Assembly (NCBI RefSeq): GCF_009734445.1
Contig: NZ_CP046457.1
Coordinates: 2,288,001-2,352,000, forward strand
Origin: Candidatus Syntrophocurvum alkaliphilum
Lineage (GTDB): Bacteria > Bacillota > Syntrophomonadia > Syntrophomonadales > Syntrophomonadaceae
Reading direction: 5' to 3'
DNA length: 64,000 nucleotides
Position numbers and translations under genes: made by a program. Position 1 is the first letter of the stretch. Each line of letters starts with the position of its first letter. Positions 55,803 to 63,636 of the stretch are shown here, one piece after another. The notes beneath the pieces were generated by a model that saw only the letters and a list, made by a program, of their open reading frames with translations, made no database searches and was not told where the DNA came from.

Positions 55803-55854
55803 AAAGTTGTACAATATATAATAAAGTCGTACAAAAGATAAAAAAGTTGTACAA
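55803..55854. repeat. Three 12 bp iterons with an exact 20 bp period
   Basis: AAAGTTGTACAA at 55803-55814, AAAGTCGTACAA at 55823-55834 and AAAGTTGTACAA at 55843-55854. The exact 20 bp period puts them on one face of the DNA helix. They lie in the glmS 3' region, right before a terminator, and about 230 bases before the agr operon. Confidence 0.8.
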
Positions 55855-55892
55855 AAACCACCTTTTGTTTCTTGTGAAAAAGGTGGTTTTTT
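55853..55892 (+). terminator. Intrinsic terminator after glmS
   Basis: A 13 bp stem (AAAACCACCTTTT with AAAAGGTGGTTTT) and a T run. The rest of the gap to 56085 is AT-rich, and I see nothing definite in it beyond a possible agr promoter region. Confidence 0.9.
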
Positions 55893-56084: not shown

Positions 56085-56561
56085 ATGCATACAATTCCGT
56101 GGTATATAGTGTTAGTTCAGAGTATTCCAGAAGCAATGTTGCTTATGATGATAGGATTTCATTTATTTAGATTAGATATAAACATAAGAACTATATTAAT
56201 AATAGCAACAATAAACTCAGTACTAGTTTATTATTTTCGTTACTTAGAATACTTTTTTATTCATACAGTACTAGGTTTATTAACACTAATTATTCTTACT
56301 GTCATACTTACAAAAAAGAATCCATGGAAAATATTTATCTCAATTCTAACTGGGATTACAATTATAGCTGTTTTACAAAGTATAACCTTACCTATTTGTT
56401 TTAATATGACAGAAACTACACCTGAGGATTTAACAACAAATCCTTGGCTAAATTTCTTTTTTACAATACCACAGATGCTAATTATGATTATACTTTATGC
56501 TTATCTAAGATATAGCAATTATAACTTTGAATATATAACTAAAGAGGAGTATGATGGCTAG
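56085..56561 (+). CDS. Polytopic membrane protein, candidate sensor half of a split AgrC
   Basis: Protein of 158 residues with about five hydrophobic segments. The N-terminus PWYIVLVQSIPEAMLLMMIG, with its PE motif, is a pattern I know from membrane partners of clostridial Agr-like kinases. Together with the kinase that follows (283 residues) it sums to about 440, the size of a one-piece AgrC. Peptide sensing is inferred from that. AGGAAG precedes the ATG. The stop overlaps the next start by 11 bases in another frame. Confidence 0.78.
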   Translation: MHTIPWYIVLVQSIPEAMLLMMIGFHLFRLDINIRTILIIATINSVLVYYFRYLEYFFIHTVLGLLTLIILTVILTKKNPWKIFISILTGITIIAVLQSITLPICFNMTETTPEDLTTNPWLNFFFTIPQMLIMIILYAYLRYSNYNFEYITKEEYDG

Positions 56562-57402
56562 ATTTCCTTTTTTAATAATTACCACTATATTAAGTCAAAC
56601 ATTACTAATAGCTGTGATAAGCCTTCTAATTTATTTTAGTAATGACATAGAAACTGTAAAATCCTATGTACCAGTTTTTATTATTGTGATTGTTTTACTT
56701 TCGGGGTTTGTAATTATATCTCTTAATCAATTATTAGTTAGTGTAAGGGTTATAACTGAAAGAAACTATTTGAAAAGTTTCCTGCAAAATACCGAATCTT
56801 TAATAAAAATACTTAATACAGAAAGACATGAGACAAGTAAGCATATCCAAACAATACAAGCTATGCTTCACTTAGAAGAGTATGATACGGCAAGAGAATA
56901 TACTGATGATATAGCACGCAACTATAGGAAACTACAAAATATAGTTAACGTGGGTGAACCAGCTCTAACAGCATTACTAAATAGTAAAAAAAGTGTGGCT
57001 GATTTTCAAGGCATAGAATTTGATTTTGCAGTTAAATGTGATATTAACAATATCCACCTAAAAAAATGGGAGTTATGTAGTATTATAGGTAACTTGATTG
57101 ATAATGCTTTTGAAGCAACAACTGCTAATGTAAATAAAAAAAGAGTTACACTAGAAATAAAAAAAGAAGATAATAATTATTTAATTTACATACATAACAC
57201 AGGTGAAAAAATAAATAACAAACAAATTAATGAGATATTTAATCCAGGTTTTACAACAAAAGAATCAGATAATCTTGGCTATGGGTTATATATAGTTAAA
57301 AACATAGTTGAAAAATATAATGGAAGCATAAAAGTACATACCCATCCAAAAACGACTTTTCAAGTATCTATACCGGTAAAGGAGAGTCATAGCATTGCTT
57401 AG
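56551..57402 (+). CDS. AgrC-like sensor histidine kinase (two membrane helices)
   Basis: Protein of 283 residues. Two membrane helices (about 5-29 and 40-63) are followed by a Spo0B/AgrC-type dimerisation helix with ERHETSKHIQTIQ (candidate phospho-His at about 93) and a GHKL ATPase with GNLIDNAFEA and GYGLYIVKNI. AgrC normally has six or seven helices, so the sensor part seems to be in the gene before. ATG 56551 is followed by a second ATG that has a better spacing to GAGGAG. The stop overlaps the agrB start. Confidence 0.9.
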   Translation: MMARFPFLIITTILSQTLLIAVISLLIYFSNDIETVKSYVPVFIIVIVLLSGFVIISLNQLLVSVRVITERNYLKSFLQNTESLIKILNTERHETSKHIQTIQAMLHLEEYDTAREYTDDIARNYRKLQNIVNVGEPALTALLNSKKSVADFQGIEFDFAVKCDINNIHLKKWELCSIIGNLIDNAFEATTANVNKKRVTLEIKKEDNNYLIYIHNTGEKINNKQINEIFNPGFTTKESDNLGYGLYIVKNIVEKYNGSIKVHTHPKTTFQVSIPVKESHSIA

Positions 57403-58018
57403 CAAAATTTCTCATAAAATTGCTAACCAGATAAGTCATGAATTAAACGAAAATGATGAGAAAATAGAAATATATGCCTATGGGTTAGAATTATTGATTG
57501 GTTCTATACTGCAGTTAATTATACTTTTTTTATTGGCATGGATTTTTTCTTTATTTCATCAAACATTAGTAGCTATAATAGCTTTTGCTAGTATAAGAAT
57601 ACTTTGTGGTGGTATTCATATGAGTTCATACTTACGATGTTTAAGTTGCGGACTTCTGATAATACTTTTTTTTGCGAAAATATCAACAATGCAGTATTCG
57701 GTGTATACATTTGTATTACTGATTTTAATAACGTTTGTTTTAGGAATTGTAAGTATAATTAAATGGATTCCTAGCTATACAGAACAAAAACAACATATTA
57801 ATAATTCTAATGCTAAAAAAATTAAATCAATTTCACTTTTTATGTTATTAGTATGGATGGGATTAAGTATTATTTTTTATCATAAAGGTATTTATGATTA
57901 TTCTTTAGCCATAATATTGGGTGTGTTAGGTGGTGTATTCTTAGCTACGCCACTTGGACATACAATTTTTGGTAAACTTGATGACAGTTTAGTTGCTTTA
58001 TCGAAAAGGAGGTGTTAA
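57395..58018 (+). CDS. agrB: AgrB-type peptide-processing membrane protease
   Basis: Protein of 207 residues with about five or six membrane segments. The catalytic pair is present: GGIHMSSYLRC, with His75 and Cys82 six residues apart, as in Staphylococcus AgrB (H77, C84). It cuts the AgrD precursor and helps close its ring. TTG 57395 with AAAGGAGAG upstream. The next gene is agrD, which starts 3 bases after the stop and has its ribosome site inside agrB. Confidence 0.94.
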   Translation: MLSKISHKIANQISHELNENDEKIEIYAYGLELLIGSILQLIILFLLAWIFSLFHQTLVAIIAFASIRILCGGIHMSSYLRCLSCGLLIILFFAKISTMQYSVYTFVLLILITFVLGIVSIIKWIPSYTEQKQHINNSNAKKIKSISLFMLLVWMGLSIIFYHKGIYDYSLAIILGVLGGVFLATPLGHTIFGKLDDSLVALSKRRC

Positions 58019-58020
58019 TT

Positions 58021-58164
58021 ATGTTTAATAAAATAAAGACGTATATTGTGACAAGTTTTGCTTCAATTTTAGCTCTGGTTGCATCATTTGGAGCTAATAG
58101 TCCGTATAGCTTATTAATGATATATGAACCTGAGGTACCTGAATCTTTAAAAAAGGACCGATAG
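58021..58164 (+). CDS. agrD: AgrD-like cyclic lactone autoinducer precursor, serine type
   Basis: Peptide of 47 residues. An amphipathic N-terminal helix (about 1-22) is followed by the signal region SPYSLLMI and the YEPEVPESLKKDR tail. Known precursors such as Listeria (CFMFV before YEP) have a Cys five residues before YEP; here it is Ser30, and the whole peptide has no Cys. The likely product is a ring closed between Ser30 and Ile34 with an N-terminal tail. AAAAGGAGG precedes the ATG. It sits between agrB and the response regulator, as expected. Confidence 0.92.
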   Translation: MFNKIKTYIVTSFASILALVASFGANSPYSLLMIYEPEVPESLKKDR

Positions 58165-58168
58165 TAAA

Positions 58169-58882
58169 ATGTATAAAGTACTAATATTAGAAGATGAGAG
58201 TTATACTTTAAGATTCATACAAAAAATCATAGCTGATCATCCTCTTGTCTCAAAGATTATACCGACTTCTAATAGTAAAGATGCAATAGACATGTGTATC
58301 AAGCATTTACCAGAAATAATATTATTAGATATAGAACTTGAACAAGAAGATGATTTGAATGGTATAGAGGTAGCAAAGAGAATTAAAAAAATTAATAATA
58401 ACGGAAAGTTTGTTTTCATTACTGGTTACTCTAATTATGCCTTGGATTCATTTGTAGTACATCCATTTGATTACATACTAAAACCAATTGTTAAAGAAAG
58501 ACTATATGAACTAATTACAGAACTATCTAAAGAAATAAAAACGCAACAAGAAGCTATCGTGAAGATAAGAGTAAAAAATAGTATATGCTTTCTAAAATGC
58601 GATGATATTTTTTACATAGAAAAACATGAAAATAATCTCAATATAATTACAGATAAAGAAATAATACAAGCGAATTGCAAATTAAAAGATATTCAAGAAA
58701 ACTTACCCAATACATTTGTTAGAGTGCATAAATCATTTATTGTAAACACAACAAAGATTAAGAAAATTAACTATTTAGGTAATAGAACATATGAAATAGA
58801 ATTTAATAATATTGAGCAGAAAGCCTTAATGAGTCGAAATAAATTTAAGGAATTAGAACATTTATTTTCCCCTATGTTTTAA
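58169..58882 (+). CDS. AgrA-like response regulator, LytTR DNA-binding domain
   Basis: Protein of 237 residues. The receiver (about 1-120) has LEDES, the phospho-Asp54 in LLDIELE and the Lys in DYILKPI. The LytTR domain (about 135-237) has CDDIFYIEKHENN and VRVHKSFIVNTTKI. Such regulators bind paired direct repeats in promoters. It is the last gene of the agr operon, 4 bases after agrD. A strong terminator follows. Confidence 0.95.
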   Translation: MYKVLILEDESYTLRFIQKIIADHPLVSKIIPTSNSKDAIDMCIKHLPEIILLDIELEQEDDLNGIEVAKRIKKINNNGKFVFITGYSNYALDSFVVHPFDYILKPIVKERLYELITELSKEIKTQQEAIVKIRVKNSICFLKCDDIFYIEKHENNLNIITDKEIIQANCKLKDIQENLPNTFVRVHKSFIVNTTKIKKINYLGNRTYEIEFNNIEQKALMSRNKFKELEHLFSPMF

Positions 58883-58893
58883 TAAAATGATTA

Positions 58894-58930
58894 AAAAGTG
58901 TTGTTGATAATAGAGTTCAACAACACTTTT
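58894..58930 (+). terminator. Intrinsic terminator of the agr operon
   Basis: A 14 bp stem (AAAAGTGTTGTTGA with TCAACAACACTTTT) begins 12 bases after the stop. Confidence 0.9.
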
Positions 58931-59013: not shown

Positions 59014-59583
59014 ATGCGAAATTCTATAATCATAAAAGCATTAATAGCTATGTTAGTTATTCAAAGTATGGCCTTTTATTATTATTATAGCAATACTAGT
59101 AAAATTATAGATTCATTTGAAACAGATTTAAAAAGTGAAACAGCAAGAAACCTTTATCAGTTTGGTACAGCTTTAATTAACACAGCTGAAACACTAGCTA
59201 TGTATGAAGATAATATGGAAAATAGAGAAAAAGAGTTATTTAACAGAGCAAATGGAAATGCACAGATATCATTGTTTCTAAATGCATCAAGGTTTGCTCG
59301 TTTACCAAGTGGACCAAATTCAGCATGGGATTCAAATAGTAAAACAGATTTATTTAATAAAACTTTTCCTCTTGCAGAAACTCTTTCCCTAGTATCAGAT
59401 GGAAAGATAACAGATTATAATCAAGTAGATGAATTAGCATATATTTTACATTTACATGGAAAAAAATATCATGAATTAATTGCAAAAAATGAATATAAAA
59501 TTTATTACGATTCAAAATTGGTAGAGGAGATCTTAAATTTAAATGAATCACTTGAAAATGATTTAAACAATTTATTACATTAA
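59014..59583 (+). CDS. Membrane-anchored or secreted protein beside agr, function unknown
   Basis: Protein of 189 residues. One N-terminal hydrophobic segment (about 6-25, with a run of four Tyr) acts as signal or anchor. The rest is helical and charged, with FETDLKSETARNLYQFGTAL and ENREKELFNRANG, and ends DLNNLLH. I know no family. GAAAGGATG lies upstream. It is separated from agr by a terminator, so it is not in the operon, but could be its target. Confidence 0.75.
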   Translation: MRNSIIIKALIAMLVIQSMAFYYYYSNTSKIIDSFETDLKSETARNLYQFGTALINTAETLAMYEDNMENREKELFNRANGNAQISLFLNASRFARLPSGPNSAWDSNSKTDLFNKTFPLAETLSLVSDGKITDYNQVDELAYILHLHGKKYHELIAKNEYKIYYDSKLVEEILNLNESLENDLNNLLH

Positions 59584-59797: not shown

Positions 59798-60643
59798 TTA
59801 TGTAGGAAAGATGGGGTTTTTATTTTTTTTAGTCTTAGTATAATCAATTGTGTGATTGCTTGGTATAAATAGCCAATGTCTATAAGGGTAAAGCCATTTA
59901 TTTTTGTAATCATTATGAATTCCAGTAGAAATACCTATATTAAACTTAAAATTTGGGTATAAATCTTTAATCCTATTATAAATATGGTTATATAATTTTT
60001 CCTTAGCTATAGTCTTTTTCCCTCTTCTTTTTTGACCTTCTGGTATTTTTCTATGCTCATTGTTAAGTCTAAATTGAATAGAACCTAAAATAATATCCAT
60101 GCCTTGTAATATAACATGTTTATGTGAATTTACTTCAACAATGTTTTCGCTAATTAAATATATGTCTTTACCATAATAAATTTTTAATAAATATGTTTTA
60201 AATCTATTATTTTTTTCCTGTGTATCTGGTAATTTATCAAAAAATAATTTTAAATTAACTCTATTATTATTATGATTACTATACTCGAGACCAAAAGCAT
60301 TTTTAATAAATTGATAATATAATAAAAAAAACTCATTTTCTTTTTGATCTTTTGTTAGATTTTCTGCAATATGTATATTTTGAGTAAACATAATACGAAT
60401 CTTTATTTTATCTGCTTTTATGTAATCAAAATACAAATCAATAAAGTCAATATATTTATCCAAATATGGATGTGAAACTTTGGTCCACTTTAATTCACTA
60501 AAGAGATTTAATTGTTGTTTTTTTTCTTCTAATGACTTACTTACCTTTTCAAAATCTATTGATTTTACTAAAGCACCGCCGTAAAAATTCCCGAAATAAT
60601 CACCTTTTTTTACAGATTCATCACAATATATTATATATTCCAT
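59798..60643 (-). CDS. DUF3800 domain protein
   Basis: Protein of 281 residues. The N-terminus MEYIIYCDESVKKGDYFGN, followed by FYGGALV, is the DUF3800 start; the Asp at about 8 is the family's putative metal residue in an RNase H-like fold. The later part is charged (about 200-280) and has HNDYKNKWLYPYRHW, with conserved His and Asp. DUF3800 genes are often found near phage and defence genes; here a type I restriction locus is divergent from it. I chose ATG 60643 because GGAGG lies upstream; 16 more residues before it are unlikely. Confidence 0.8.
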   Translation of the reverse strand: MEYIIYCDESVKKGDYFGNFYGGALVKSIDFEKVSKSLEEKKQQLNLFSELKWTKVSHPYLDKYIDFIDLYFDYIKADKIKIRIMFTQNIHIAENLTKDQKENEFFLLYYQFIKNAFGLEYSNHNNNRVNLKLFFDKLPDTQEKNNRFKTYLLKIYYGKDIYLISENIVEVNSHKHVILQGMDIILGSIQFRLNNEHRKIPEGQKRRGKKTIAKEKLYNHIYNRIKDLYPNFKFNIGISTGIHNDYKNKWLYPYRHWLFIPSNHTIDYTKTKKNKNPIFPT

Positions 60644-60776
60644 ATAATTCCTCCAAAAATTACTATTACTAATAATAAATCTTAAATACAAAAAGGTGAA
60701 TAGCTAAAATTGATTTTAATTTATTAAATTGTAGTATAAACAAATGTGAAAATAACAAATTTATAAGTCTTACTTA

Positions 60777-60813: not shown

Positions 60814-60977
60814 GCTTTAAAACAAGTAAATGAAAGAAATAAAAAAAGACAACGAAACAGTTAAGTGGTTTTAATATATTTAATCCACGTTTAGACCATA
60901 TATTGCTAAAATCTACATAGAGGATTAAAATAGAAAATGTAAATGATTAACAACATCAATTGTCAAAAGGAGATATT

Positions 60978-62453
60978 ATGCTAACAGGAGAATTACGCAA
61001 TAAAATTGATAAGATATGGGAGATTTTTTGGACAGGGGGTATAACTAATCCCTTATCTGTTATAGAACAGATTACATATTTATTATTTATTAGAGGTCTT
61101 GATGATTTAGAAACTAAGCAGGAAAAGGATGCTGAAGTTTTAGGTTTAGATTTTAAAAGGATATTTCCTGAGGATAAACAGCATTTAAGATGGAGTAAAT
61201 TTAGACACTTTGAAGCAGCTAGAATGTACAATGTTATGGCAGAAGAAGTTTTTCCTTTTATAAAAGAGCTAAATGGAGATAATGAATCGTCATTTGCTAA
61301 ATATATGTCAGATGCGGTATTTATAATACCAACTCCACAACTTTTAGAAAAGGTAGTTACATCTTTATCGACTATTCCTATGGATAATACTGATGTTAAA
61401 GGTGATTTGTACGAGTATCTTTTATCTAAAATATCGCAGTCAGGTACAAATGGACAGTTTAGAACTCCTAAACAAATTAGAGACATGATGGTAAGCCTAA
61501 TGAAGCCTACGCCAAAAGATATAATTGCTGATCCAGCCGCAGGAACAGCAGGCTTTTTAGTATCTGCAGTAGAGTATATGAGGGAAAATCATGAGGATTT
61601 GTTTTTTACTAAAGAGCTAAAAGAACATTTTAATAATACTATGTTTTTTGGTTATGATTTTGACAGAACTATGCTAAGAATTGCCGCTATGAATATGGTT
61701 TTACATGGAGTAGAAAATCCTAATATTATCTATCGTGATTCACTAACTGAGCAAAATACTGATACTAATAAATACACCATGGTTTTAGCTAACCCACCAT
61801 TTAAAGGTTCACTTGATTATGAATCAGTATCTAATGATTTATTAAAGGTGGTTAAAACCAAGAAAACAGAATTATTATTTTTAGCATTGTTTTTAAGAAT
61901 GTTAAAGCCAGGTGGCAGATGTGCAGTTATAGTCCCTGATGGAGTTTTATTTGGGGGCTCAAATGCCCATAAAGCTATGCGTAAGGAGATTATTGAAAGT
62001 CATAAATTAGATGCAGTTATTTCTATGCCTAGTGGTATCTTTAAACCCTATGCAGGGGTATCAACAGCTATATTAATATTCACCAAAACTGGTGCAGGTG
62101 GAACAGATAAAGTTTGGTTTTATGATATGAAAGCCGATGGACATTCACTAGATGACAAGAGAACACCAATTGAGCAAAATGATATACCAGATATCATAGC
62201 TAGATTTAATAACTTAAAAGATGAAGAACAAAGAAAGAGAACAGATCAATCTTTCTTTGTAGAAAAAGATGAAATAGTTAATGGTGGTTATGATTTGTCT
62301 ATAAATAGGTATAAGGAAATAGAGTATGATGAAGTGGAGTATGAGAGACCGGAGGTAATATTAGATTTTATTAGAAGATTAGAAAATGATATAGAGCAGG
62401 GAATAAATGAATTAGAAGAGATGATTACAGCTAAGGAGAAAAGTAATGAATGA
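60978..62453 (+). CDS. hsdM: Type I restriction-modification system, methyltransferase subunit
   Basis: Protein of 491 residues. The N-terminal HsdM helical domain (about 1-130) has WEIFWTGGITNP. The methyltransferase domain has the AdoMet motif ADPAAGTAGFLVSA (about 184-197) and the catalytic NPPF in LANPPFKGS (about 271). This makes it an N6-adenine methylase. The tail is a coiled coil. I chose ATG 60978 because AAAAGGAGA lies before. It overlaps hsdS by 8 bases. No hsdR is seen before it; it should be further on. Confidence 0.96.
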   Translation: MLTGELRNKIDKIWEIFWTGGITNPLSVIEQITYLLFIRGLDDLETKQEKDAEVLGLDFKRIFPEDKQHLRWSKFRHFEAARMYNVMAEEVFPFIKELNGDNESSFAKYMSDAVFIIPTPQLLEKVVTSLSTIPMDNTDVKGDLYEYLLSKISQSGTNGQFRTPKQIRDMMVSLMKPTPKDIIADPAAGTAGFLVSAVEYMRENHEDLFFTKELKEHFNNTMFFGYDFDRTMLRIAAMNMVLHGVENPNIIYRDSLTEQNTDTNKYTMVLANPPFKGSLDYESVSNDLLKVVKTKKTELLFLALFLRMLKPGGRCAVIVPDGVLFGGSNAHKAMRKEIIESHKLDAVISMPSGIFKPYAGVSTAILIFTKTGAGGTDKVWFYDMKADGHSLDDKRTPIEQNDIPDIIARFNNLKDEEQRKRTDQSFFVEKDEIVNGGYDLSINRYKEIEYDEVEYERPEVILDFIRRLENDIEQGINELEEMITAKEKSNE

Positions 62454-63636
62454 GGTAAAAACTCTTAAAGATATTATTGTAAAAATTGAGAGTGGTGGAC
62501 GACCTAAAGGTGGAAGTACTAAAGAGGGAATTCCAAGCCTTGGTGGAGAACACTTAAACTATTATGGTGGTTTTAATTTTAAAAATTTAAAGTTTATTCC
62601 AATAGATTATTACCAAAAACTTAAAAAAGGAAAAATAAGCTTTAATGATATATTAATAGTTAAAGACGGTGCAACAACTGGTAAAGTTAGCTTTGTAAGT
62701 AGCGACTTTCCTTATGAACAAGCGGCTATAAATGAACATTTGTTTAGATTAGCAGTTGATGAAAAAATTGTGTATCCGAAATATCTTTTTTACTACTTAT
62801 CTTCGTCAAAAGGCCAAAGTGAAATTTTAAAGGATTTTAGAGGGGCGACAATAGGAGGAATAACTTTAAAGGTTGCTGATATAGTAAAAGTACCTATACT
62901 GTCTTTAGACATTCAACACCAAATAGTCTTAGCACTAGACCAAGCCCAAGAACTAATAGACAAAAGAAAAGAGCAAATTGAAAAACTAGATGAGTTTTTG
63001 CAAAGTGTGTTTTTAAATATGTTTGGTGTTCTTAGTAGCAACAATATGAATTGGAGCACTTCAACATTAGGAGAAGCGTGTTACTTTATTAAAGATGGAC
63101 CTCATAAATCTCTGAATTATGTTGAAAGCGGTATACCTTTTATTTCAGTAAATAATATTATAAATGGAAAATGGGATTTAAAAAATGTAAGATACATTTC
63201 TCATGAGGACTATGAGTTATACTCTAAAAGATGTAAACCCGAAAAGGGTGATATTTTATATACAAAAGGCGGAACTACCGGATATGCAAAATTAGTAGAC
63301 GTTGATTTTGATTTTTTGAATTGGGTACATATAGCTGTATTGAAGTATAGTAATAATCTTTTAAACGGTCGGTATCTTGAGTTTCTACTTAACACGGATT
63401 ACTGTTATCGTCAATCTCAACAGTATACTAGAGGCGTTGCAAATAGAGATTTAGTTTTAAGTCAAATAAAGAAAATAAAAATTCTAATTCCCCCCCTCTC
63501 CCTCCAAAACAAGTTCGCCCAAATAGTAGAAGAAACCGAAAAACAGAGGGAGCAGATGGAAAAGAGTTTGGTGGAGATGGAAAATTTGTTTAATAGTATT
63601 ATGCAAAAGGCATTTAAGGGTGAGCTATTTCAGTAG
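62446..63636 (+). CDS. hsdS: Type I restriction-modification system, specificity subunit
   Basis: Protein of 396 residues. Two target-recognition domains (about 5-150 and 205-345) are each followed by a conserved helical spacer: LDEFLQSVFLNMFG after the first, and EKQREQMEKSLVEMENLF at the end. This two-fold layout defines HsdS, which sets the split DNA target of the complex. A run of seven C (63490-63496) lies in the second half and could slip. AAGGAG in the end of hsdM serves as ribosome site. Confidence 0.93.
   Translation: MNEVKTLKDIIVKIESGGRPKGGSTKEGIPSLGGEHLNYYGGFNFKNLKFIPIDYYQKLKKGKISFNDILIVKDGATTGKVSFVSSDFPYEQAAINEHLFRLAVDEKIVYPKYLFYYLSSSKGQSEILKDFRGATIGGITLKVADIVKVPILSLDIQHQIVLALDQAQELIDKRKEQIEKLDEFLQSVFLNMFGVLSSNNMNWSTSTLGEACYFIKDGPHKSLNYVESGIPFISVNNIINGKWDLKNVRYISHEDYELYSKRCKPEKGDILYTKGGTTGYAKLVDVDFDFLNWVHIAVLKYSNNLLNGRYLEFLLNTDYCYRQSQQYTRGVANRDLVLSQIKKIKILIPPLSLQNKFAQIVEETEKQREQMEKSLVEMENLFNSIMQKAFKGELFQ

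Follow-up and report, generated by a model that had tools for sequence, protein, structure and literature searches.

What kind of ring can an AgrD precursor form when it contains no Cys? The question is raised by a short open reading frame in the 64,000-nucleotide stretch of Candidatus Syntrophocurvum alkaliphilum DNA that we analysed (hereafter, the window). The mechanism described for AgrB involves a thioester on an AgrB Cys, which is attacked by a Cys of AgrD (PMC4979651); Ser lactones have been proven in Staphylococcus pseudintermedius and Enterococcus faecalis (PMC3673130, PMC12312760). As judged from sequence, we consider it very probable that the window holds an ordinary agr-type quorum-sensing operon in which Ser, instead of Cys, is the ring nucleophile of the precursor.

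The operon and its cysteine-free precursor

Five co-directional genes, separated by small gaps or overlaps, occupy positions 56085–58882 (Table 1): they encode a protein with five transmembrane (TM) segments, a 2-TM histidine kinase, AgrB, AgrD and a LytTR regulator, and this order is conserved in relatives. The initial annotation had described AgrD as a 47-residue, Cys-free protein with Ser30 five residues before YEP, and the reading frame agrees with this in every respect. It scores 34.3 bits against the AgrD family TIGR04223 (cut-off 19), although Pfam returned no match to it; residue 30, five before Y35-E-P, is Ser, encoded by AGC; and Cys is absent from all 47 residues, which places the protein outside the Cys (thiolactone) subclass. 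Hydropathy and sequence together delineate a hydrophobic leader at approximately residues 5–23, a ring segment, and an acidic C-terminal tail, YEPEVPESLKKDR, that contains the Y/H-Q/E-P motif. A ribosome-binding site, AAGGAGG, precedes the agrD start codon and lies within the 3′ end of agrB. Genome-wide, there is a single match to AgrB and a single match to AgrD.

The adjoining AgrB was also correctly annotated as retaining its His-x6-Cys site: H75 and C82 are both present. The AlphaFold model of this protein is all-helical and confident (mean pLDDT 86.4), which we take solely as a sign that the fold is intact; solved structures that were compared with AgrB gave weak, unrelated matches only.

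The two features that together define AgrC, a polytopic membrane sensor and a HATPase_c kinase, are both found here, divided between two genes (5 TM in one; 2 TM plus kinase in the other). The kinase part aligns with positions 141–396 of the 414-position staphylococcal AgrC model, and so it lacks the first 140 AgrC positions. The 158-residue membrane part has no family match; it is matched by the N-terminal half of the one-piece AgrC of relatives (402–496 residues), the C-terminal half of which matches the kinase. AgrC is likewise in one piece in S. intermedius and S. pseudintermedius. Over 20 further Clostridia-type genomes share the split form (others have the fused form), so it is not the result of a frameshift. 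A narrow literature search found no paper on a split AgrC.

Three direct repeats sit between glmS and the agr operon; no other such pairs occur in the genome (2.36 Mb). They resemble LytTR/VirR-type boxes (AGTTnTnCA) and are candidate regulator sites through which the operon might induce itself; the triple repeat was not found in relatives. The repeats precede a hairpin (55853–55891) that may be the glmS terminator. At the other end, a perfect inverted repeat probably marks the end of the agr operon; it was missed by our terminator scan because the latter considered loops of 3–8 nt, and the loop here is 9 nt. Directly downstream of the operon, positions 59014–59583 encode a 189-residue protein with an N-terminal TM segment, which matched no family above cut-off and had no relative among the fetched loci; it is a possible target of the agr system. 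Further on are a gene for a DUF3800 protein (59798–60691, minus strand) and, next to it, type I restriction-modification-like genes (60960–63636, plus strand) for a methyltransferase (N-6 type by sequence) and a specificity subunit.

Table 1. Positions of the agr genes and associated elements in the window, and loci of the Lys-type precursors in related genomes.
Feature	Position or locus	Strand	Description
Three direct repeats	55803..55854	+	AAAGTYGTACAA, period 20 nt; candidate LytTR response-regulator sites
Split AgrC, membrane part	56085..56561	+	158 aa, ~5 TM segments (hydropathy); N-terminal half of relatives' one-piece AgrC
Split AgrC, kinase part	56551..57402	+	283 aa, 2 TM segments, SPOB_a + HATPase_c; 11-nt overlap with preceding gene
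agrB, membrane peptidase/cyclase	57395..58018	+	PF04647, 118.8 bits; H75-x6-C82 (numbered from TTG 57395)
agrD	58021..58164	+	47 aa, ATG to TAG, MFNKIKTYIVTSFASILALVASFGANSPYSLLMIYEPEVPESLKKDR; TIGR04223, codons, hydropathy, −5 survey
Predicted lactone ring codons	58108..58122	+	Ser-Leu-Leu-Met-Ile = AGC TTA TTA ATG ATA
agrA-like response regulator (receiver + LytTR)	58169..58882	+	PF00072 + PF04397; adjoins AgrD in relatives too
Perfect 14-bp inverted repeat, then ATT	58894..58930	+	Probable agr operon end
Lys-type AgrD	L083/L209		Genome G001
Lys-type AgrD	L059/L210		Genome G012
Lys-type AgrD	L029/L211		Genome G022
Lys-type AgrD	L093/L212		Genome G024, MNAFKLFLL-YEP
Lys-type AgrD	L025/L213		Genome G030
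Lys-type AgrD	L075/L215		Genome G035
Lys-type AgrDs, two	L084/L216, L090/L218		Genome G067

The residue at the ring-nucleophile position

Evidence on the function of Ser30 was derived from a survey of AgrD precursors, identified with TIGR04223 in 54 genomes of the family, 63 of the order, and an even sample of 398 from the phylum, from which only the better-scoring matches were taken. The precursors were sorted with a profile built here, the seed of which held Cys, Ser and Lys types, and with its anchor set by pattern. Among the resulting 179 distinct precursors (the phylum being represented by its better-scoring matches), only four residues occupy the site five before Y/H-Q/E-P (position −5): Cys (129 precursors), Ser (41), Lys (8) and Thr (1). 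The family contributes 42 Cys, 7 Ser and 8 Lys; the order, 5 Cys and 2 Ser; the better-scoring matches of the phylum sample, 82 Cys, 32 Ser and 1 Thr. Elsewhere between −9 and −1, these four residues together account for just 3–45% of the 179 at any one position, which identifies −5 as the nucleophile position.

The initial annotation had treated Ser as a rarity outside one staphylococcal group. That view has to be abandoned: a Ser-type precursor is present in 34 of the 141 sampled AgrD-bearing genomes, about a quarter (better-scoring matches only for the phylum), and the GBAP peptide of E. faecalis is also a Ser lactone (PMC12312760). By sequence, Ser is a common second state at −5, a normal minority state. 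AgrB, for its part, does not vary at its active site: the His and Cys of H-x6-C are invariant in all 72 AgrD-paired AgrBs that could be aligned, their partners being of the Cys (33), Ser (30), Lys (8) and Thr (1) types, as they also are in 15 of 15 AgrBs from operons of the window's type. The sole precursor with Thr at the nucleophile position (ATGFWS-YQPEVP, locus L017 of genome G047) lies beside an AgrB with an intact active site; in Anaerosalibacter bizertensis (L287), a Cys immediately precedes the Ser.

Relatives of the operon were sought with an alignment of the kinase, since that of the 15 AgrBs was too variable for scanning, and a scan of contigs with the window's AgrB alone found no relative. 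When run against named genomes, the kinase alignment mostly matched Syntrophomonas and Syntrophomonadaceae metagenome-assembled genomes. We then built a tree from 22 concatenated sets of AgrB, kinase and regulator (a quick search, with SH-aLRT support only). It places the window in a five-row clade (SH-aLRT 97) with two Ser-type operons (G005, G018) and two Cys-type operons (G002, G024); since this clade mixes both types, the Ser and Cys states interchange at one orthologous locus. The Cys-type operons of Syntrophomonadaceae (G002, G024 copy 1, G003) have the same gene order as the window and fall in one orthologous clade, but differ in having Cys at −5. The window's exact place in the tree is less sure, because its branch is long (0.91) and its amino-acid composition is odd. 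All six Lys-type operons in the tree group together in a single clade (97), with two Ser-type operons as its neighbouring pair (88).

Proposed ring closure and its alternatives

The five-residue Ser lactone S30-L-L-M-I34 that was initially proposed gains support from these comparisons: the −5 position is invariant as a nucleophile across the 179 precursors, the AgrBs are intact, and Listeria, the closest solved case, forms its ring from CFMFV, which has the same placement relative to YEP. It is from this invariant position and the Listeria autoinducing peptide (AIP; PMC4916163) that we infer the ring limits S30–I34. We propose that Cys82 of AgrB would cleave AgrD after I34 and keep the peptide as a thioester, which the hydroxyl of Ser30 would attack to yield the lactone S-L-L-M-I; the leader would then be taken off by signal peptidase or a similar enzyme. 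The short tail that the initial annotation attached to the ring is a guess, the N-terminal cut being open to several placements. The mature peptide would be sensed by the two-part AgrC (the 5-TM protein together with the 2-TM histidine kinase), which would in turn phosphorylate the LytTR regulator.

The scheme can be compared with several known systems. The AgrD of S. intermedius and S. pseudintermedius also uses a Ser nucleophile and an adjoining AgrB to make a lactone (PMC3673130, PMC12312760); its sequence and lineage differ, and the peptide has been isolated there whereas here it is predicted. FsrD of E. faecalis likewise gives rise to a Ser lactone, GBAP, made by the AgrB homologue FsrB, but the ring has nine residues, fsrD lies inside the fsrB sequence, and the Ser is not five before YEP. 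Listeria monocytogenes also has a five-residue ring (CFMFV) directly before YEP, in an operon with AgrC and a LytTR AgrA, but its AIP is a Cys thiolactone without an exocyclic tail (PMC4916163). Further parallels are the Ser-type AgrDs of other Clostridia, which also have Ser at −5 before YEP, beside a related kinase or an intact AgrB. Their ring sequences differ: NSIFYL-YEP in Anaerovirgula multivorans (L272) and NSIWYF-YEP in Petroclostridium sp. X23 (L275), two of the cultured Ser-type hosts, and SIFII-YEP in genome G038. We found no characterisation of these three in the literature.

Could the ring be closed through a different residue, or be of another size? Ring sizes of 6–9 are known for other AIPs (PMC4916163), those of 6 and 9 residues among them, and Ser27, at −8, is a second possible nucleophile that would give an eight-residue ring. 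However, only −5 is nucleophilic in all 179 precursors, the residue at −8 being Cys, Ser, Thr or Lys in 37%, and we regard such a ring as unlikely. Ser is also a weaker nucleophile than Cys, and other Gram-positive systems use linear signals, so it might be imagined that AgrB cleaves AgrD without closing a ring and that the linear peptide is the signal. Less probability still attaches to this proposal, bearing in mind that every precursor has a possible nucleophile at −5 and that Ser lactones are already proven in two genera.

A system that has lost its Cys might alternatively be degenerate and make no signal at all. We rejected a pseudogene on the grounds that none of the five genes is disrupted and each overlaps or adjoins the next, that kinase and regulator retain their domains, and that related Ser-type operons are intact too; the chance of decay is accordingly very small. 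An even more mundane explanation, a sequencing error, would need just one base to be wrong (AGC for the Cys codon TGC), and Cys does occur in two of the nearest operons. Indeed, Cys-bearing relatives combined with such an error were one ground that the initial annotation had put forward for giving up the Ser lactone. Same-clade Cys operons were found, yet others in the clade have Ser; a total of 41 precursors, spread over 34 genomes, carry Ser at the same place, and these include those two further members of the five-row clade. The coexistence of Cys and Ser operons in one clade thus reflects turnover, and we rejected the error as next to inconceivable. The Ser lactone is the preferred reading, and the window's AgrD likely has the chemistry of this already known class.

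Lysine-type precursors and the possible range of agr ring chemistry

Another key observation to emerge from the survey is a group of eight precursors, from seven genomes of the family, in which −5 is Lys (K-x-F-[ILV]-L-YEP) and which are each accompanied by an AgrB that retains both His and Cys (Table 1). In the one from G024, there is no Ser, Thr or Cys from −9 to −1, so that Lys is the sole side-chain nucleophile. Strong matches of a Lys-type profile to the phylum sample were confined to the window's family, and viral contigs yielded no confirmed Lys-type AgrD. We found no description of a natural Lys-type or lactam AgrD in the open-licence literature. All three types of AgrD, with Cys, Ser and Lys, coexist in genome G001 (L050, L076, L083).

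The simplest reading of the Lys-type sequences predicts a lactam autoinducer; a linear signal instead is possible. That the −5 residue varies under AgrB, and that AgrB-type enzymes make lactam (amide) autoinducers besides thiolactones and lactones, is a generalisation that we offer tentatively, at somewhat less than an even chance. More surprising than the window's Ser is that Lys should occupy this position throughout a related clade.

So far, descriptions of Ser-lactone signals come from Enterococcus and a small number of staphylococci. Our survey portrays Ser-type precursors as a normal minority that alternates with Cys types at a single orthologous locus, and methods that trap thiolactones are expected to overlook their products. 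The Lys-type relatives would probe the latitude of the AgrB active site towards different nucleophiles: if they do make lactams, a single orthologous system would employ three ring chemistries, and a lactam signal would have much greater stability than a thiolactone.
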